Positions 29,907 through 55,891 of a stretch of DNA of 64,000 bases are shown one piece after another. Origin of the DNA: Asterias amurensis (taxonomy: Eukaryota > Echinodermata > Asteroidea > Forcipulatida > Asteriidae); the NCBI RefSeq assembly GCF_032118995.1, contig NC_092669.1, forward strand, positions 620,001 to 684,000. Direction: 5' to 3'. Each line of letters opens with the position of its first letter. The first letter of the stretch is position 1. Both the position numbers and the translations under genes were made by a program. The notes under the pieces are model-generated. The model saw only the letters and a list, made by a program, of their open reading frames with translations. It searched no databases and was not told the origin of the DNA.

Positions 29907-30492
29907 ACAAGTATACAAAGAAGGGTATCACCTTCTACAGAATATGACTTTAAACAATAACTTTGTAAAATCGTTTCAGACACTATTGTAATCCAATCCT
30001 CCAATGGAGAAATAAAATCAACAGAATACTTTAGGGTTTTAAGTTAAATATTTATTCTCACATATATATTTACACCCCTGAATATAGATCAATACATCTC
30101 AGACTATAGCAAGAAATACAAACCATACAGTAACAAAAACACGTCCACTAAATGTAATGAAAAACACAATCATTTCTATAAAGGTTATTTTTAAATTAAG
30201 AAGAAACATATCCCAGTCAAGCTTGATCCTAGTTAATGATTGCGTCATTTAACTGATATAGTAACTTTGATTTCAAAGGATTGCTGACGCACCTTTTAAA
30301 CCATATTGCAGATTTTTTTTAAACTCACTCTATAAATCACAGTTATAATCGTTTTCTTTCCATAATATTTGAGGACTTAAACCTGGTTCATGCAAAAGCG
30401 AATTCGCATGGCTCAAGCAATATGGCTCAAACAATCAGTATGGGGCGTTTTCCAATTTAGATGTACGAAAACCAAGCCTTGAATTTCGTTCT

Positions 30493-30678
30493 TGAAGGGG
30501 CATAGCAATTCAATCTTCCTTTGGTAAGGGCACTTCTAGGAGGAGAATTTAAATTAAGTATCTTGGACAGGCCGAAACCAGACAACTTGAAGGGTGCATC
30601 TTCTGAATTATTGGCATACAACAAGTTCTCTGCCTTCAAATCTCTGTGGACTTTTCCATTCTCAAGTAGGTACTCCGT
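30493..30678 (-). pseudogene. Decayed CaMK-type protein kinase fragment
   Basis: The minus frame reads EYLLENGKVHRDLKAENLLY, then APFKLSGFGLSKI. This aligns with the catalytic loop and activation segment of CaMK4-like kinases, where HRDLKPEN, APLKIADFGLSKI and a following GTPGYCAPE are expected. Here Pro is Ala in the catalytic loop, the metal-binding DFG Asp is Gly, and the GTPGYCAPE region is unrecognisable (LNCYAPSR). No neighbouring kinase exon was found. It lies about 220 bp past the stop codon of the RING-H2 gene on the same strand, so it may be carried in that gene's 3' UTR. Loss of the DFG Asp and isolation argue for a dead fragment. Confidence 0.6.
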
Positions 30679-30901
30679 GGGAACTTTGCAAAGGGCACCA
30701 CAACAAAAGCACAGGGCACCACGGCATTTGCTGTGTGTGCTGTGAAATATTTCGAGGCCTGGAAAACTCACTGCTCGATTCCCATGAAGTATGAACCTGG
30801 CTATAACAAACATGAAATCGATAAGAAATGTTCTCCTTACATGCTTTATAATGCAGGGTCAAAGATCACTCATTTGTTGATGTCTGAATGCTCCGAGGTC
30901 A

Positions 30902-33900
30902 TCAATGAAAGTTTACTGGGTTAAAGTTCACCTCTTCTCGACACACTGGACAGATGCGATTTTCCTACAAGAAAAAAATTGCAAAAAAAGTTAATGGCCT
31001 GACGTTTCAACTCTTCGGAATCTTTTACATAAAGTATGAACCGGGCTAAATGCTGTATAGTCTTGATTCAACTCACTTTCAGCCATTTATCAATACAGAC
31101 CGCATGAATGCTGTATAGACTTGATTCAACTCACTTTCAGCCATTTATCAATACAGACCGCATGAACGCTGTATAGTCTTGATTCAACTCACTTTCAGCC
31201 ATTTATCAATACAGACCGCATGAACGCTGTATAGTCTTGATTCAACTCACTTTCAGCCATTTATCAATACAGACCGCATGAATGCTGTATAGTCTTGATT
31301 CAACTCACTTTCAGCCATTTATCAATACAGACCGAATGAATGCAGTCTAGTCTTGATTCAACTCACTTTCAGCCATTTATCAATACAGACAGCATGATAG
31401 AAATGGAAGCATGGTAACCGCCTCATGTTCTCTCCCGTCTCGTAGTCTCCCATACAAATAGAGCATTCCTTCTCTTCAGATGACTGGCCAGGAGTGTAGA
31501 GAAACGTCGGTAGGTAGTTAATGGAAGATTCAGGAAGACCTTTGCTGATGGCTGGGCCGACTGACTCGGCAAGATTCCATAAAGTCTAAAAAATAATAAT
31601 AACATTAATATGAATAAAAAGTTCTTGATTTGACCTCTTCCACCCACGTCACACGTTACTAAAGTTTCCCTTGCTCATTGACTCCCAAAATGGCGCAACA
31701 AAAATTATTTGACGTTAGGTGAATCGGGTCAATAAGGCATTTAAGTATAAAATCCTGTAACTATTTATAGAGGTAACTATCCGAGTCTTAAGTTAGTTTG
31801 AAACTTACAATGGCTTCAGAATGTTAGTTTAACTTCCTATGATAAATCTACAACCCTACAAAGCACCACAAAAAGTTATAGCATTAGCAAATCAATTTGT
31901 ATACATAAAAGACGTTAATTGAAATTAAACATTAAACATTACAAAAAGAGGTTCCACTGGCAACCAAATTGACCTGTGGTCTAACATCTCTTAACATCTA
32001 TCAAATGTTAGCAGTATGAACTGAACTTCTAGGCCTAGCTACCGAGTAATCTCGGTGGTCTAGTGGTAAGACATCTACTCTAGAATGGCAAAGGTCGTGG
32101 GTTCGAATCCCACCATGCTTGTGGGATTTTTCATAGACCTAGGGAAAATACTGAGTAGGCCTATACAAAGATAACACACATCAGTGAGTAAAACAAAGGA
32201 ATATCAGGGTAAAAAAAGCAATCAATAAAAGGAAATCAATAAATAAAAACATCATCAAATAAATACAGTATTATTGCCAATATTGCAATAAAGTTAAATA
32301 ACACAAAGTAAAATGCAGTTGAATATATTTCAATCATAAAAAACACACTGGATTGAAATGTTAAAATTCACAATAAATGGTATGCAATCACAAAGACACA
32401 TATTAAATGGCAACAATGCAGTCAAATATTGAACAATTACACATCAAAGAAAAAATACATTGACACATTAATTGGCAACAAGGCAACCATAAAGTACAAA
32501 TGGACACAAAAAACATACACTGGTAAAATATACAATGGAGAAAATACAACAACAATATCATATCAATTTGATTGTCAATGTCAAAAATACAACTTTGTAA
32601 TTGTTTCAAGTAAAAGTGGGTTATATTTACAGAAGAAAATACAACACATCAAATTTCACAGAAAGTAGCTAAGCATAAAACAATTATGCTTATCAGAATA
32701 GGGTTACCACCCAAAATATAATGTCACATAATGGAGGTTCCATCTGTGGCTGGTATCCTTCATAAGCCCGGTTCATACAAATGTACTTCCTGTGAATGCG
32801 GATGTTGGCGTCACAAATTTGCAATGAATAATTCGCAGCAGTTGAGATGTGCTCAACTCTTGAGTTGTGACGTCAAAATCACATCAAATTTGCATCGCAT
32901 TGGCAAACACAGGAAGTATGAACTGGGCTTTACTTGTGTTAAGCAGAAATTTGTGAAGCAATATTTCCTGCTTAAGCAACTCTATGAAATTGGGCCCTGG
33001 TCCCAGAGATGAAGGGCAACTCTTTCCCTACCTCATAATCAGCGCCATTAGCCATCGGTGATTGCATATTGTGAGGATTCCGCCGGCCTCTTCCCCTTCC
33101 TCGACGCTGACCTCGGTTTCTTTGTCTTGGAGGAGGCTACAAAAGAAGATAAATTTCAAGAAATAAACCATTTGAGAAACTGACTGGATATGATTTTTTT
33201 AACAGTTTTGGGTTTGAATAAAAAAAAAATTACTCAAGCATTTACCAAGTGATTATATACTGTCCTATATGCCCCTCTCTGTAGAGACCATTAGCCAAGT
33301 GAATATGCTGTCCTATATGAACTCTTACCAAGTGAATATGCTGTCCTATATGAACTCTTACCAAGTGAATATGCTGTCCTATATGAACTCTTACCAAGTG
33401 AATATGCTGTCCTATATGAACTCTTACCAAGTGAATATGCTGTCCTATATGAACTCTTACCAAGTGAATATGCTGTCCTATATGAACTCTTACCAAGTGA
33501 ATATGCTGTCCTATATGAACTCTTACCAAGTGAATATGCTGTCCTATATGAACTCTTACCAAGTGAACATGCTGTCCTATATGAACTCTTACCAAGTGAA
33601 CATGCTGTCCTATATGAACTCTTACCAAGTGAATATGCTGTCCTATATGAACTCTTACCAAGTGAATATGCTGTCCTATATGAACTCTTACCAAGTGAAT
33701 ATGCTGTCCTATATGAACTCTTACCAAGTGAATATGCTGTCCTATATGAACTCTTACCAAGTGAATATGCTGTCCTATATGAACTCTTACCAAGTGAATA
33801 TGCTGTCCTATATGAACTCTTACCAAGTGAATATGCTGTCCTATATGAACTCTTACCAAGTGAATATGCTGTCCTATATGAACTCTTACCAAGTGAACAT

Positions 33901-36900
33901 GCTGTCCTATATGAACTCTTACCAAGTGAACATGCTGTCCTATATGAACTCTTACCAAGTGAATATGCTGTCCTATATGAACTCTTACCAAGTGAATATG
34001 CTGTCCTATATGAACTCTTACCAAGTGAATATGCTGTCCTATATGAACTCTTACCAAGTGAATATGCTGTCCTATATGAACTCTTACCAAGTGAATATGC
34101 TGTTCTATATGAACTCTTACCAAGTGAACATGCTGTCCTATATGAACTCTTACCAAGTGAATATGCTGTCCTATATGAACTCTTACCAAGTGAATATGCT
34201 GTTCTATATGAACTCTTACCAAGTGAACATGCTGTCCTATATGAACTCTTACCAAGTGAATATGCTGTCCTATATGAACTCTTACCAAGTGAATATGCTG
34301 TCCTATATGAACTCTTACCAAGTGAATATGCTGTCCTATATGAACTCTTACCAAGTGAATATGCTGTCCTATATGCCCCTCCATGTTATCCACAAGAAAT
34401 CGATCCATCTCCAGCATCATGGCAGCGTTGACGGGATTATTGTCGACCAAGTCATCTCTCCATCTCATCTCCCACTGGTTGGTACCTCGTTGATTGGGGA
34501 AGGCAGTGTTATGGGCACCGGGGAAGAGAGGTAACACAGGCATGGAGGGAACATGGCCCGGACCATCGATGTTATGGATCAAGATCGGCTGAAAAATAAA
34601 AAGAAATAACATTTGTAAGCAGAAGTGTGAACAGTGAACCATTGAAGAAACTCATACCTGCTAAGCATATGACAAAAGCTGGATAAAACTTGCTTACCTG
34701 ATCGTTTGAAGACGCCTCTGCCAGTCTGTTCGCCTCTGCATCAAATTCCTCCTAAAAATACAAGAGAAAGAGAGATTAGATTTTAAAATTTCAAAAAGTT
34801 TTGCAGGGAACTGTTTAAAAATAGCATACAAATTTCAAAATGGTTTGCAAGAAACCGTTTAACAAAAAATAAACGCACACGTGTACTTTTCTGTTGTGTT
34901 TTTCTATTTATTTTTTTAAGGGTTGGGGTTAGAATGGCAGAATTTAAATCAAATCAAAATAATCTTTTGCTGCAAAAGCCATCTATTTTTTATGCTCTAT
35001 TCATTTTGAGACATCGTCATCGCTACCCAATAAAACTTGATCAACCAGTTCAATACTTGGGACCTAATTCAGAAACGCCATTTATAGGGCATTTTTGTTA
35101 AACAAGCCACAATATTTGCTTTTTTTGCCACCATGATTGGATTCAAACAGGCTGACCGAGCCTTAGCCAGCTTAAGCCAGAGCCATTACTGAAGCCATTG
35201 TAAGAGACTTACCTGGAGTTGTTTTGCCATAGCCTCATCATTCTCCATCTGTCTTACCAGCTCAATCACATCTGGTGACTCAGGACGCCCCGAAGACCTC
35301 TTCTCTCGACTTTTCCGCTTATGTTTAGATGACTTGTGTTCTTTTCTGTGTTTTGACCTATGACCCTCAGAATTCATTGCACCGACATCCGTTGTAGGTG
35401 GTTTTGCAATGTCTTTGTCCTTCTTTGATTCTTTTCTAGTCCTTTTTGACTTGTGCCTTGAGACTCTACTTCCATCATCTGGACCAACACTGGGAAGCTC
35501 AAGGTGCCTTTCATCAATGGAGTTGGAACATATCCCAGGACTGGTCTGATGGTCACCCAGTTCGCCAACTTCCAGTTCCAAGTTCCTAGTCGCTATACCG
35601 GAACCAGGTATGTTGACAACTTGGTTTGAACTTGTGCCGTAACTCCCAATGTTCAAGGAGCTAGCTCTTGGTGTAGTAAGAGTGATATCTTGGATCTCAA
35701 GTCTTGGATTAAATCCAATCGGATAAGAAGAACTGCTAACAACAGTAACAGTATCAGTCCTTCCTTGGGAAGGCCTTCTTCTGACTTCTTCGCCATCTGA
35801 TTTAGAACCTCTTGCTGAATTTCCCAACGCTGAGTTTGATACTTGTCCAGCAAGCACCAAACTGGGATTGGAGTCAGTCCATTTTTGTTTATGCGTTCTT
35901 GAAGTGTGTCCAGAAATGTTAGGGTGGTCTGTGTCGGTCAGGTTCACAATCATGTGGTTGTCATCAGGAGACATGGATAGATTTCTGCGGGTATTGTTTT
36001 GCTTCCTGTCGTGATTCCTAAGACGATGTTGAGGTGAGGAGTCATCGCTTCCTCGCGTGGTAGTTTCCCTTGAAAAGCGTTGCATGAATCCTGGAGACTG
36101 AGAAGGACTTCCAAAACCTGTAAGATTCTGGGGAACTTGGTTGTTGCTCAATGTGATGTCACTCTTTTTAGGGGTGATCTCCTTTTGAGAACATCGAAAG
36201 AACACTGGAGAACGAGAAGGGCTAGAACTAATTCCACTTGCCAAAATGGGGATAGAAATTGTAGGACTCTCTGGTTCAGAACTGTCATCTCTTTCTGTGC
36301 TTTGAATTGTGTTTATATGCACCACATCGTCATCCCACGCAACGTTGGATCTGATTTTGATCGATGGGACATGATCCTCTCTGTTCAGTGGAGCTTTCTG
36401 TTTGAAGCTCATCAAAGAGGTCTTGGAGTTTCTTTGGCAAGGCGAGAAGTTGGACTGGAACTCGGGACTGGTTTGTCCTGACATAGCTCCTCTGTCTGCA
36501 CTCTGCGTTATGTCGATTAGTATGACTCCTTCGTCCCTACCAGGAGGGTGAGCCACTCTCTTCTGGCTGATATTATCACTTGGACCTTGGCTACATGATG
36601 CTCTCAAACTCATGGACATGTGTCTGCTGTCGGGGTTATATGGACGCTGAGTGGTGTTCTTAGCTTGATGAGTTTCTTCGCCAACACCCTGGCCAGAGTC
36701 AATCAAGATGACTTGATCATCTTGTCTGTCTTGGATTCTATCATCATCTTCCTCTGTTTCATCCCCATCAGTACTTGATGTCGATCCAAACAACTTCAAG
36801 TCCATTTGTTTTTGGTCTGAGTGGTTATCGTTTCGATGAACCTTATCAGAAGTGTCGTGTGTTTGTTTCGCACTTCCAGCAGAGCCTTGTTCAAACTTGG

Positions 36901-38645
36901 TATGTCTTCTTTCCAATGCATTTGATGAGGAATTTAGAATACTAGACATCGACCAGGAAACTGGCAATATTCTGGCTTTCTTGGTTCTTGGAGGATTGTC
37001 AACTTTCAAGGACCGTTTATTCTGTCCGAATTGTTGTCGTATGTTACTGTCTTTTGGAACTGTTGACATTCTTTGCAACACTTTCATGAATCCATTATGT
37101 TTTGGTGACGTTACTTTTTCTTCTTCTCTTGCCAGGTTATTATTCACCGAAGCGACCACATCAGGCAGTTGGGAGATGCTTCTCAGAGCATCATTTTGCC
37201 GACTTCCCAACTTATTTTGAAGTCTCCTTGCAAGTGGCTGTCTGTTATCAGAGGATGATCTATTTGGAAAGGTTGACGAGAAAATTGAATCAGAATCTGA
37301 GCTACTGCCACTCGAGTCATTCTCAACTTTATCAAGACCTTCTAATCTTCTAAACTTCTGGGTGAGTTGCGGCCGACTGCTTGGATAACTTGTTGCCTGC
37401 CGGCCAATATCAGATCTTGACTCTGAATTACTGAATACTTCCGAGGTGGGTCTTGACCACACATCACGATGTTTATTGTGTGAACTGTTATTGCTGATAA
37501 CGGACTTAACTTTTTGGCTCCTTTCGATTTCATTAATACTGTGAGGTATTGCTGGATCATTTTGTTCCCTGAAAAATGTGTCCCTTCTGATGCCAGAGTT
37601 TATCCTTCCTTCTCCAAGGAACGGATTCTGCCCATGTATTGATGCACTATTGTGGGTCTTTTCTACAGTAATTACACCCCCTGCCTGTGAAGAGTCTACA
37701 TTCTTTGTAAAAATTTTTCTTCCACTGTTCTTAGAGCAGTCTCTTTCACTATTCCTTGCGGTTTGATCGACCTTAAACACAAAACTCTTCACAGAAGTTT
37801 GTTCTTTATCCTTGGGTGGTTTGACACGACTCAATCTTATTGGAGGTACATGTAGCTTGCTCGGCTTCCTGGTTGTTTGAAACAGCGTCGACTCTTCAGT
37901 CTCTTGAGGTAGTCTCAACTCCTTTGTTGAGTCTTGGCTGGATCTTTTTCTCGGCCTCTTCAATTGATGGAGGATACTCTCCCCAATATCAAAAGGACTT
38001 TCCCGTCCTGATCGAGGTAGCTGATGCTCAACAATGGGGTGTAGTTTCCGTTCTGGGCTGTAGAAAGTAAACACAAAAAAATCCAAGCATTTTTACTTTG
38101 TGCTTCACTAGTACTGCAGTCAACTCTCGTTATAAAAAGGTCGCTGGAACTGGCCAAATTACCCCTTTATAACAGAATGTTGTTTAAGGGCATCCTTATC
38201 TTTTACTATTTTTATTTTACTTTTTTTTTTTTGGAGACAAAGTTTATGTGTTTATAATGTATCATTAAACTTACTAATCTTAAGAACTTGTAATATACAT
38301 AAAGTGGTTGGCAACTCTAAACTGAACAATTGGGGGCCAGTTTGAATTATAATGTTTGACAGCCACCTTTAATTAAAAGAAATAAAGAATAAAAAAATAA
38401 AAAGGACCTCATCCCCCTCTTTTTGAAAGAACCTGGATGATAAACTGATTTTGTTTACTTGGCCTTAAACAATCCCTACATGTCAGCTGCACAAACCTTG
38501 GTGTATCGGGCACTAAGATGCAACCATCGTTAGACCTGGCCGTTTCATCCTCATCACTGCTACTCCAAAGGTCAAGAAGAACCGCTGCATGTTTGAACTT
38601 TGACCTTTTAGAAGCCTCACTCTTCTGAAGATGCTCCATGGGCAT
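30902..38645 (-). CDS. Large RING-H2 E3 ubiquitin ligase with multiple SUMO-interaction-like motifs
   Basis: Exons on the minus strand: 38645-38497, 38057-35213, 34751-34698, 34588-34352, 33136-33032, 31585-31367 and 30964-30902. The first join is phase 2 and all later joins are phase 0, giving 1,223 residues if the proximal donor at 34352 is used. The RING-H2 ligands are C1171, C1174, C1189, H1191, H1194, C1197, C1208 and C1211, split by an intron after WLK (next exon ENRICPVC). The rest is mostly disordered, Ser-rich and basic. SIM-like hydrophobic patches next to acidic or Ser residues include AVLLDLWSSSDEDE (20-33), QVILIDSG (about 498), GVILIDIT (about 560), VVHINT (about 627), MIVNLTDTD (about 750) and DVIELV (about 977). 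This suggests a SUMO-targeted ligase; that is inference. The start sits in a strong context (GCCCATGG for the second Met). It resembles the Arkadia/RNF111 style of E3 but I cannot assign an orthologue. Confidence 0.85.
31049..31392 (-). repeat. 58-bp tandem array duplicating an exon end and its 5' splice site (six copies)
   Basis: On the plus strand the word agccatttat starts at 31081, 31139, 31197, 31255, 31313 and 31371, exactly 58 bp apart. Read on the minus strand, each unit carries tgtattgataaatggctgaa (RING residues CIDKWLK) followed by the donor AAA|GTGAGT. The copy at 31371 is the true exon end; five more lie in the intron. The unit length is not a multiple of three and the donor is followed by TGA, so use of a distal donor would truncate the protein inside the RING. 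Confidence 0.9.
32043..32125 (+). mobile_element. tRNA-derived SINE fragment
   Basis: It contains an A-box-like tggtctagtggtaaga and a perfect B box (gtgggttcgaatcccac, with a 5-bp T stem). The acceptor and anticodon stems do not pair, so it is not a tRNA gene. An A-rich tail with repeated aatcaataaa follows. It lies in the intron between exons 33136-33032 and 31585-31367 of the RING-H2 gene. Confidence 0.55.
33283..34375 (-). repeat. 33-bp minisatellite carrying 32 tandem in-frame 5' splice sites
   Basis: The minus-strand unit encodes HIGQHIHLVRV and contains CACTTG|GTAAGAG, a strong donor. Thirty-two donors run from 34352 to 33329 at exact 33-bp spacing, with only a few substitutions between units (HVHL, EQHIH). 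The flanking coding frame enters the array without a break and all donors are phase 0, matching the phase-0 acceptor at 33136. Each further donor therefore adds exactly 11 residues. Past the array the frame continues ANGLYREGHIGQYIITW to a stop at 33242. A last diverged ggcatataggacag copy near 33265 carries a donor in another phase. Confidence 0.92.
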
Positions 38646-51318: not shown

Positions 51319-54300
51319 ATGATGGCGGATAAACCAAGCTGTGTCGCAAAGAACTCTCGCGTCCTCTACTTCTTTGTGAATTTTGTGGTTTGGGTAAGTT
51401 TGTCCAGTTAGGTGAGGTTTATGGTGATATAGCAGCCCCGTTGATTGACCATGTGGGGGATCGGGACAAAATCTCCGGCTCCAGATTTCCTTGGAACACC
51501 GGCTCAATATTGAATATCCGAATGGCTTGCCTCGGAGACTTATTTTTAATCTATACTAAACTAATTTTCAGTTGGCTTCATGTTTTAAATGTTGTTCGAA
51601 GCTTTGCATGAAAGAAACTATAAATAAATAGTAAACCTGCGGGTACAACCATTTTGAGGGAGTGTTGGCTCTGGAAAGAGCCCGTTTGGTCTCGACGTTT
51701 CCAACAGTATACTCTGCTGGTCTTCAGTAGATTGTGTACCCGCAACTTTACTATTTGTTTATCATTTCTTCCTACGTTTTTATATGTTTGGGCTTTTTGT
51801 TTTTTTGTTATGTGGTCAGTTTGTTTCTTGTGTTAGATATTTCGGTTTGTTTCTTGTCTAAATGCTGCATAGGCTTTGGCAAGTAGCTGGAATGACGTAG
51901 ACTCATTTACAATCTAACTAAAACTAATGTTCAGTTTGATTCTTGTTTTATATTGGTTTGTTTCTTGCTTTAGATATTCGGTTTGATCCTGATTGCGGTT
52001 GGTGGTTTTATCCTACAAAACCTGTCAGCATTTGCCTTCGTCTACGTTCAGAATGAGAGCGAACTTCTGATTGGCTGCTGGGTTCTGATTGGTTTAGGAT
52101 GTCTCGTCTTTTTAGCTGGCTTCAATGGAGTCTGGGCTTGCATGAAAGAAAGCCACATCGGAATGAAAATAGTAGGTGTTAATGTAGTGGTGTAAGACAT
52201 GCACAAGTCTATTGTGATTGTTAGGTGACGTCACGTAGTCTGTACTGGACGCCGCCATGTTTGGCTCAAGTTTTATAAGACAGTAACACGTATACGTTAC
52301 CGTTAATAGTTCAGCTCACAACAATACTTCTGGACTAATCTATAATTATAACAATTACAATGAATAGTCTGTTTCAGTGGGCCTTTAACAAAAACATCTC
52401 AAAGTGAAATTCTTTGCCAGCCAATTGCGAGACAAAAATGAGGTTTAGCTCTAACTCCCTAGTTTTCCTATTGACCAAGCTGTCCCTCTAATTCCCCCTA
52501 ATTATAGTTTGAATTGTTTTATGAGATTTCACCTAACATCACTGGGCCAGACGGCCACTTCAGTTGATTTAGGCTGCCAACCCAAATCAACTGTCACCAG
52601 GGGCACGTCTCCACCTACTCTTGGGGCTGAAAGAGGGTTACCCCCTTCACAGTCTGTCAGGATGTAGGCATGGGTAGCATCCACTAGGAGTCACCTACTT
52701 CTTGGGCTGAAACAGGGTTACCCCCTTCACAGTCTGTCAGGATGTAGGCATGGGTAGCATCCACTAGAAGCCACCTACTCCTTGGGCTGAAACAGGGTTA
52801 CCCCCTTCACAGTCTGTCAGGATGTAGGCATGGGTATCATCCACTAGAAGCCACCTACTCCTTGGGCTGAAACAGGGTTACCCCCTTCACAGTCTGTCAG
52901 GATGTAGGCATGGGTATCGTAGAAGCATGACTGATTGACTGTTTACGAAGCAATGTTGATGAAGTGCCTTGCTGAATGGCATAGGTGTCATGACCGGGGT
53001 TCGAACCCACACTCTGCTACGACACGCCAAACTATAGAGGGCAGTCTTTTTGGACTTAACACCCTTTGTTGTGAAGAAGAGAGTGTTATTGTTTCCTCTT
53101 AATGGTCGTTCATTAAAATTGGTTAATATTTCTTTCACCCATCAGTATTTTGCTGTTATGATCTGCATAGTGATTGCTGAACTGGCGACGGGTATTCTCG
53201 CATTTGTCGGCAGGGAACAGGTTGGTACAATTCTGGATAACCTTTGGTTAGAGTAGGGATTTTGGTTAAAAGAGTGGAATCTAAGTTAGTTGCCATGGCA
53301 ACATACTGATATATAGTCAATTGTTTATAAACTAGTTACATTACAAGGATGTCGTTTATCGGGAGCTATGGGGACACGGGAACCAATAAACGGGACAGAT
53401 TGAGGGATGCAGTCGATTGGAACCAAACAAAAAGGAGGGATTCCACAAAATCAACAATTGTGATTATTTTTTTTGTTTCAGGTTAAAGAGAATACTAGAA
53501 ATACCATGAAGAATCAGGTAAAAAACGAGTTCGGTAAAGGTGGCATTGTGGATGATGGCTACAATAACATCCAACAGAAGGTAATTAATGACATAGACAT
53601 TGACAATGACAAATCATTTTGATAATGATATAATTGACAATGACCCCTGGTCATTTTAGTTTAGGATCAAGTTGCAACATCTAAACTCATTTTATTTGCC
53701 CTATCTGTATTCTAAACTCATTTTATCAGCAACGATGTTGTGGGGTTGATGGACCAAGTGACTGGAATGATTCCTACTTTTCAAGGTTAGTTGAAAACTC
53801 AGGAGTTGCTGTTCCGCCATCTTGCTGCATTCCCAAGAATAAGACCGGATGTAACCTTGGGACCCCTGGACAACCAGACAAACCTCAGCTTGTTCATGAA
53901 AAGGCAAGTAGTCATACACCAATGTTCCGACAACCCTTTATTTCGACACCCCTATGTGCCGACAACCCTTTGTTCCGACAACCCTGTTTTCCGACACTCC
54001 TTTATTTCGACACCCCTATGTTCCGACAACCCTTTATTTCGACACCCCTATGTTCCGACATCCCTTTATTTCGACACCCCTTTGTTCCGACAACCCTGTG
54101 TTTCGACACCCCTTTATTTCGACACCCCTATGTTCCGACATCCCTTTATTTTGACACCCCTTTGTTCCGAAAACCCTGTGTTTCGACAACCCTGTGTTTC
54201 GACAACCCTTTGTTCCGACAACCCTGTGTTTCGACACCCCTTTGTTCCGACAACCCTATGTTTCGACACCCCTATGTTCCGACATCCCTTTATTTAGAAA

Positions 54301-55891
54301 ACCCTTTGTTCCGCAACCCCTATGTTTCAACACATTTTGAACGTCGACACAAGTTCCGACACCTCTTTATTCCGACACCCCCTTTTCAACACCTTTATAT
54401 TCAGACACCCATTTGATCCGACACCCCTGTTTTCCTACACACGTTTGCTCCGACACCCCCATTTTCTGACACATCTTAAGTTTCGACACATGTTCCGACA
54501 CATCTGTATTTCGACACTCCTTTGTTTCGACACCCCTATGTTCTAACACCCCAGGTAGTGTTTCGACACCATTATAAATATGTTCCGACACCCCTAAAAC
54601 AAAAACAACCACAAACACTAGCTACGACCTTGTTTGGCACCAAGTACAAATGACTTAATAATGTGTTTATTATACACGTTCAGCTCGCTAACTGTCCATT
54701 AAAGCATGTTGTTCGGCAATACGGAGAATCTGGCCGAAAACAGACCCGATAAAATGTCCGCCAAACAATGACAAATTTATGTGACAGTAATTCGCGCTCG
54801 TTACCAATAACTGTTTCGGCTGACGTTGACCATTGGTTGATCACTAGCCAATGACCGAAACAGTTACTGGTTTATACCAAAACGCACCCATGATCTACAC
54901 AGACGCAGTCCTTGACCAATCATCATCCACCTGAGAGGATACCGATATGAAAACACCCGCATGTCAAAGGTCAATCTGTCAATTTCTTCTCTTTTGCAGG
55001 GATGCTCTGAGGCAGTTGTTACATTTCAAATTGGAAATATCAACACCCTAGGAATGATTGCTCTGATCATGGTTGCTCTGGAGGTAAAGTGGAAAAGTCT
55101 ACTATAATTATTATTGAATTCAAGTCAATTCAATGTATTTGTTCATCATGAAAAAAACCGAAAACCCCTTGAAATTTTGCTTCCAATCTACAGCATTTAA
55201 AAAATTAAAAACTACACCGAAGTACATCATAATTTAGACAATTATATAAAGCAGGATTTGAAGCTTTGCATGGTGGAAATATGATATGGAAAAGTTTGCG
55301 GTAATGAGTTGGGGGGGGGGGGGTTCTGAAAAGAACCATTGGTTTTCAACTCGACGTTTCGATCAGTATGCTCTGGTCGTCTTCTGGAGAACAATTATAT
55401 TCAAAATAAAAGAGAGAGAGTCAGACAAACAGGCAAGAACATTCCAAGTAGTCCAATCCTGTGCCTAATTTCATCAAGCTGCTTAAAGCAACAAAGGTTG
55501 CTAAGCACAACAACATTATGCTCACAAGAATGAGGGCACCAGCCACACCATGTCACGGGTACATTCTGTGACTGGTAGGATGCTGCTTGTTTTTGCTTAG
55601 CAGGATTTTTAAGAATAATTCTCTGTTTTAGCAGATTAATCCTGCTGTCTATAATTACTGTTGGTGTCACTTTAATCTATTTTTTTTAATCATTATTTAA
55701 AAAGAAATGCACTTGTTGCCTTAAATTAAAGCAAGCTCATGATAACAAAGTGTCATGTCTTGTATCCATCTCCCTTTCAGAGTGTTTCTCTACTGTTGGT
55801 CTGTTGCGTCATCAGCACCAGACCAGAGCTAGATTTAGAAAAACCTGACCAATCAGAGAGCTCCGTCACCAGCGAGGATGAAAAGCTGTAA
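51319..55891 (+). CDS. Tetraspanin, paralogue of the adjacent minus-strand gene
   Basis: Exons: 51319-51393, 51974-52171, 53146-53220, 53482-53580, 53730-53903, 55000-55083 and 55781-55891, all phase 0, giving 271 residues. TM1 spans exons 1-2 (LYFFVNFVVW, IFGLILIAVGGFIL). TM2 is in exon 2 (LIGCWVLIGLGCLVFLAGF), TM3 in exon 3 (YFAVMICIVIAELATGILAF). The large loop has CCG at 152-154, PSCC, an NKT glycosylation sequon and GC in exon 6. TM4 ends in VCCVIS. The cytoplasmic tail is acidic (ESSVTSEDEKL). Exons 2, 3 and 6 are 66, 25 and 28 codons, exactly as in the minus-strand gene. Intron 5 uses a GC donor (AAG|GCAAGT), which alone keeps the frame. AATAAA signals lie near 56166-56177. The start is the first of two consecutive ATGs (ATGATGGCG). 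Confidence 0.93.
51668..51735. repeat. Dispersed repeat with GAAACGTCGA core (inverted)
   Basis: It contains tctcgacgtttccaacagta and tactctgctggtcttcagta, the reverse of the element at 10940. A further copy is at 55340-55395 in the last intron of the same gene. Confidence 0.6.
52608..52922. repeat. 80-bp tandem repeat, four copies
   Basis: The unit contains ggctgaaacagggttacccc, cttcacagtctgtcaggatg and taggcatgggtagcatccac. Copies are nearly identical. It lies in intron 2 of the plus-strand tetraspanin gene. Confidence 0.9.
52930..53045 (-). mobile_element. tRNA-derived SINE fragment
   Basis: On the minus strand it reads gcagagtgtgggttcgaacc, a B box with its T stem. A similar piece (gagtgtgggttcgggtcc) is at 63190-63225. 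No full cloverleaf was found. Confidence 0.45.
53922..54600. repeat. Degenerate 15-bp satellite starting 19 bp after a GC donor
   Basis: Units alternate ttccgacaaccct and tttcgacacccct, with a basic period near 15 bp over about 680 bp. The array begins right after the exon 5 donor of the plus-strand tetraspanin gene. The long open frames here on both strands follow from the period being a multiple of three and are not genes. Confidence 0.9.
54795..54872. repeat. Inverted repeat with CCGAAACAGTTACTGG arms
   Basis: The words ccaataactgtttcgg and ccgaaacagttactgg face each other. A related single arm, gccaatgaccgaaacagtta, lies at 46127-46155 downstream of the other tetraspanin's last introns, so this is an interspersed element. 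Confidence 0.6.

Follow-up and report, generated by a model that had tools for sequence, protein, structure and literature searches.

Which 5' splice site does a gene use when dozens of identical ones follow each other at the end of an exon? The question is raised by a locus in the window analysed here, a stretch of 64,000 nucleotides of Asterias amurensis located on contig 22 of the searched genome (491.5 Mb, 23 contigs). In this locus a 33-bp minisatellite of 33 units, hereafter array 1 (33295..34375, minus strand), lies over the boundary between exon 4 and intron 4 of a modelled gene whose product is, according to its domain content, a putative RING-H2 E3 ubiquitin ligase. We propose that array 1 is very probably a donor mirage, a repeat of the kind named from amphioxus, in which the first donor (donor 1, last exonic base at 34352) is the one mainly used and the other copies are mostly part of intron 4.

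Tandem Repeats Finder (TRF) gave for array 1 a period of 33, 32.8 copies and a 98% match. The unit-by-unit reading recovered 32 units with the core CACTTG/GTAAG (the slash marks the exon-intron boundary), with last exonic bases placed every 33 bp, the first at 34352 and the last at 33329. Twenty-four of these donor units are identical, six share an I-to-V change and two share a G-to-E change, unit 33 has lost its GT (GGCTAA), and the degenerate end of the array (33246..33294, minus strand) holds a diverged terminal copy, CACTTG/GTAAATG, with its GT at 33245. According to the frame table, each of the 32 donors (CACTTG/GTAAGAG) is in phase 0 and leads through one stop-free frame into the phase 0 acceptor at 33136, which opens exon 5 (33032..33136, minus strand, beginning PPPRQRNRGQRRGRG) and is shared by all of them, with predicted products of 1,223 to 1,564 residues. 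The 32 equal donors at an exact 33-bp spacing, their common phase, the phase of the acceptor and the openness of the array in the coding frame had all been put forward in an earlier reading of this locus (the original prediction), and each of these points was confirmed. Equivalent in-phase donors facing a single acceptor, open in 32 of 32 cases, also characterize the arrangement known from human IFI6, here as a potential of the sequence. With donor 1, exon 4 measures 237 nt (34352..34588, minus strand), is in phase 0 at both ends and lies between the acceptor tttttcag/CCG and the donor CTTG/gtaagag, its frame running on into the adjoining exons. That the repeat unit of array 1 covers an exon end together with its splice site follows from the gene model, on which the membership of exon 4 in the modelled ligase gene also depends.

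The evidence that carries our proposal comes from other donor arrays, in which homology across the splice junction indicates the donor that the conserved protein needs. One of them, absent from the original prediction, lies in the same gene. Array 2 (31049..31397, minus strand, detected by TRF) is a 58-bp minisatellite with six identical donors, GGCTGAAA/GTGAGT, and a period that is not divisible by 3; it spans the end of exon 6 (31367..31585, minus strand), which carries the first part of the RING-H2 domain according to Pfam zf-RING_2 and the RNF38 alignment, and which ends in DKWLK/gtgagt. When its donor 1 is joined to exon 7 (30902..30964, minus strand; the end of the RING, ENRICPVCREEVNFNPVNFH, then the stop, from the gene model and the RNF38 alignment), the resulting DKWLK/ENRICPVC matches DKWLKANRTCPIC of RNF38 with no gap at the exon 6/7 join, and by this homology the unit of array 2 spans both exon end and splice site. 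The five distal donors all read VS and then a stop, with the loss of the last RING cysteines. On this reading, only the first of the six identical donors appears to keep the RING, and donor 1 must be the one chosen if the ligase is to function.

In addition to array 2, the next exon was found for three arrays, those of HMBS, SARA and the TP53I11 locus on contig 12. For HMBS (Porphobil_deam exon, Pfam 2e-12; 32 bp, three donors), the join at donor 1 raises the match from 47.6 to 67.4 bits and is gap-free over 57 residues against a solved porphobilinogen deaminase (7ccx). For SARA (SARA_C exon, Pfam 3.5e-11; 38 bp, four donors), the Pfam match grows from 35 to 85 residues and from 43.1 to 133 bits. 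The p53-inducible11 exon of TP53I11 scores 8.4e-5 alone and stays under the Pfam cut-off until joined to the next exon; the donor 1 join takes it from 23.1 to 61.3 bits, exceeding the cut-off of 27. The distal donors give frameshifts or stops in HMBS (2/2) and in SARA (3/3), and for TP53I11 the frame as we read it meets an in-frame TAA at the end of the first 43-bp unit, a codon that would be included by any distal donor. Taken together, in all four testable arrays, of which one extends over about 42 units, donor 1 is predicted to be the only donor that serves the conserved protein.

Since donor 1 is needed in four of four testable arrays and the same splicing machinery operates at array 1, splicing there most likely relies mainly on the donor at 34352 as well, and we infer from the four other arrays that regular splicing at array 1 is probably undisturbed. 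The following course of events, together with the success of donor 1 at array 1, is what we infer for this locus. The minisatellite would have started with the tandem duplication of a 33-bp segment that included the last bases of exon 4 and the adjoining 5' splice site, and unequal exchange or slippage would then have enlarged it by blocks of units. The spliceosome would act mainly at the 5'-most donor (34352), yielding the 237-nt exon 4 and a RING-H2 ligase of 1,223 residues, and the other 31 donors would lie inside intron 4 and be mostly ignored, a low-level use of the next few being possible as in human IFI6.

The original prediction had offered as its alternative the use of a single donor, either the first or the last, followed by neutral intron. 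Its first-donor version agrees with the requirement for donor 1 in the four arrays, whereas its last-donor version fits poorly. If the terminal donor were used, the whole of array 1 would be a coding exon, and the array is indeed open through unit 33 and beyond, until a stop at its end; however, the last in-phase donor would create an internal exon of 1,260 nt, and the copy at the true end of the array (33246) does not keep the phase, leads to a frameshifted end and has a weaker predicted pairing with U1 (-5.3 vs -8.0 kcal/mol). We therefore regard the use of the terminal donor as extremely improbable.

Several points weigh against donor 1 as the main donor of array 1. Its choice is drawn by analogy, and the four tested arrays are cases where distal use is harmful and where only a preference for donor 1 would survive, a filter that does not act on the in-phase array. 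All 32 donors share a 9-base core, and the predicted pairing with U1 is -8.0 kcal/mol in the five computed. In an RNA fold of five units, the lowest exposure belongs, by a small margin, to donor 1 (unpaired 0.44), the others reaching 0.46-0.49 and the last one 0.87. When U1 occupies all sites well, intron-proximal donors can be favoured. Finally, human IFI6 uses more than one repeat donor (PMC4526556). As for RNA folding as the reason for the choice of donor 1, this explanation was rejected, donor 1 being the least exposed of the five.

A partial use of the array in the manner of IFI6 overlaps with the donor mirage. Donors 1 to about 3 would be notably used and would give a short ladder in steps of 11 residues, the far donors being silent. 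The donors of array 1 are identical and in phase, distal use carries no stop penalty, and donors 2 and 3 may plausibly see some minor use, given that two downstream repeat donors are employed in human IFI6 (PMC4526556). However, the distal donors are non-productive in the four other arrays of the genome, pointing to a preference for the first donor, and we consider a notable use of donors 2 and 3 as possible but rather doubtful.

Beyond such a short ladder, any of the 32 donors might be usable, which would give up to 32 protein lengths (1,223-1,564 aa) over a range shifted by array polymorphism. Array 1 would then work as a length dial, U1 engaging any of the 32 equal donors and thereby including 0 to 31 extra HIGQHIHLVRV repeats, and a change in copy number, inherited or somatic, would shift the distribution. 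The full ladder accords with 32 of 32 donors being identical, in phase 0 and open to one acceptor, and with an insertion point that follows the N-terminal region and precedes the RING, outside the single type of domain that Pfam recognized. However, the donors have an identical phase because the period of 33 is divisible by 3, and the openness of the array is weak evidence, since on either strand two of the three frames contain no stop, and a given frame also lacks one in 39% of shuffled 33-bp units. As a repeat, array 1 is far beyond chance; its coding openness is not.

The genome-wide counts of donor motifs, which are overlapping matches rather than arrays, point the same way. With gaps of 8-38 bp, three copies of GGTAAG gave 1,042 matches vs 1,107 for the reversed pattern, for three copies of AGGTAAG 83 matches, which fall into 16 arrays, compare with 253 for the reversed control, and a further count of donor-hexamer arrays gave 10 vs 25; the longer-period search, with 72 vs 46 for the control, is the exception. 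Thus, in short-period arrays donor hexamers are not commoner than in the reversed control, nothing indicates that donor arrays have been selected for, and we claim no selection. The full ladder and the length dial both appear unlikely to us. The insertion of 0 to 31 repeats proposed in the original prediction stands for the range of lengths and is possible on paper, while donor 1 alone fits the data better.

The history of array 1 can be read in part from its units. A two-unit query against the whole genome (very common words skipped, scoring limited to the best candidates) gave 16 matches, all inside array 1, and the absence of a match elsewhere indicates that the array arose locally. Its variants recur in blocks (V,E at units 5-6 and 8-9; V,V at units 14-15 and 24-25), which suggests that array 1 may have grown by blocks of units. 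The length of the array could in part be an assembly artefact, near-identical 33-bp units being hard to assemble; in contrast, the variant units follow an ordered pattern of block duplication and tandem arrays are common elsewhere in the genome, and we hold this explanation to be very unlikely. Possible signs of length change come from the repeated blocks of array 1, seen in one haplotype, and from the two TP53I11 loci (L078, G000:C12:20831902-20833692, and L084, G000:C22:7924178-7925324; 42/43 bp), where the same exon peptide is followed by matches that extend over about 42 units at the first locus and about 27 at the second. These unequal spans could reflect a duplication or a misassembly, and a change in length.

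The evidence suggests that array 1 belongs to a known and recurring kind of repeat growth. In amphioxus, tandem repeats called 'mirages' lie over exon-intron boundaries in globins (BflGb6, BflGb9) and in Adh3 and show length instability, and for the globin mirages splicing was found undisturbed by RT-PCR (PMC3087553). Mirages are also described in amphioxus TnC, and similar repeats in PGBD5 (PMC3902484). Array 1, a minisatellite-like repeat by TRF, differs from the amphioxus mirages by its echinoderm host, its 32 donors, its period divisible by 3 and its open frame, and the RT-PCR data on splicing concern the amphioxus globins only. The IFI6 repeat, reportedly presented by Turri et al. in 1995, is said to have a 12-bp unit in 26 copies. 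In this human gene (G1P3, 6-16) repeat units at the exon end act as donors, and two downstream units are used, which leads to three mRNA species (PMC4526556). Array 1 resembles it as an exon-end repeat whose units carry splice donors; it differs by its 33-bp unit, its gene and its phylum, and its downstream donors are known from sequence alone.

The statement of the original prediction that no case with so many phase-matched donors was described therefore fails, the amphioxus mirages and human IFI6, as far as these sources describe them, being of the same kind. Intron gain by tandem duplication of AG/GT sites (Rogers; Zhuo et al.; Gao and Lynch, cited in PMC3087553) similarly takes a tandem duplication across a splice site as the raw material for new exon-intron structure; unlike it, array 1 has produced no new intron, and its duplicated sites stay within one existing intron. 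Among the titles listed from the open-licence literature, none plainly concerned an echinoderm case of donor arrays, and a C. elegans paper on minisatellites near alternative exons (PMC4039745) has, in its excerpted text, no passage with the word donor. The present analysis contributes the set of donor arrays in an echinoderm, including a 32-donor in-phase array and two arrays in one gene, which extends the mirage structure from amphioxus and bears on intron change. Among the donor arrays of the genome are both in-phase (33, 39 bp) and out-of-phase ones (32, 38, 58 and mixed 42/43 bp), with spans of 3 to about 42 units, and such exon-end arrays are natural experiments on the choice of the spliceosome among many identical 5' splice sites.

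The complete gene model comprises seven exons on the minus strand, giving 1,223 codons plus a stop with consistent phases when donor 1 is used. Besides the four exons described above, it includes a first coding exon as modelled (38497..38645, minus strand), whose start codon is uncertain, a long, serine-rich exon 2 of 2,845 nt (35213..38057, minus strand) and exon 3 (34698..34751, minus strand). The RING-H2 domain lies at the C-terminus (Pfam zf-RING_2, 3.3e-14), RNF38 is the best match among solved structures (4.1e-19), and several stretches of the protein presumably resemble SUMO-interacting motifs. The NCBIfam search gave no match above its cut-offs, and no retrocopy or paralogue of exon 4 showing the spliced form was found genome-wide, the 20 protein matches corresponding to four of the gene's own exons and 16 RING regions elsewhere. 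Two of the six donors of the gene lie in arrays, which occupy 5.1% of the window (binomial 0.034 for the donors and 0.12 for the 12 splice sites); as a post hoc comparison, this is not used as an argument. Just downstream of the stop of this gene lies a protein-kinase-like fragment (30460-30858, minus strand; Pkinase 7.6e-8), which looks like a decayed copy. Elsewhere in the window, at 53685-54552 (plus strand), a tetraspanin-like exon recognized by eye is closely followed by a minisatellite with periods of 16/32/48/80 bp, and its consensus lacks a donor motif.

Among the AGGTAAG arrays, which were counted by eye, the sequence 5' of the first donor was read in all 16, and six of them start at an exon with a Pfam E-value below 0.001: VWA_4, SARA_C, Porphobil_deam, p53-inducible11 at both TP53I11 loci, and Mito_carr (6.4e-11), the last at an irregular cluster, not a clean repeat. 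In five arrays (L069, L073, L075, L076, L083) the upstream sequence was tested by Pfam and gave no match, and the test omitted five others (L068, L074, L077, L081, L082), among which an open frame of 65 codons is present in L074. Upstream of another array, at C2:190320, no more than 15 codons are open. For GGTAAG, eight places were examined among the matches listed (the first ~100 of 1,042), and one, L057 (G000:C1:36700500-36710400), has a clear exon. Its VWA_4 array (~36705370-36705850, minus strand; 1e-14) has a 39-bp period and 12 units, 11 of them with GT, and stays open in the frame of its exon; its next exon was not seen when the open frames of L057 were looked through by eye. Three of the eight places hold 31, 35 and 36 clustered copies, respectively; a clear exon is lacking in two of them, and the 35-copy cluster, L059, has a weak match to DUF4635 (0.003), below the cut-off.

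Long AGGTAAGT arrays also occur in the genome, repeating about every 64 bp (G000:C16:11316561-11318488), 57 bp (G000:C20:6195088-6195779) and 62 bp (G000:C2:23690117-23692290). In the mitochondrial COX1, read with translation table 9, AAA stands at positions where animals have Asn (such as those in RMNN, IINMR and DRN), AGA encodes Ser and ATA encodes Ile. Echinoderms and flatworms have this code in common, and of the two an echinoderm, and given the 22 chromosomes a sea star, is the more likely host. Two COX1-like copies (G000:C5:658874-660214 and 675294-676634) score almost equal to the mitochondrial COX1 (contig 23) and are probably nuclear insertions of mitochondrial DNA.

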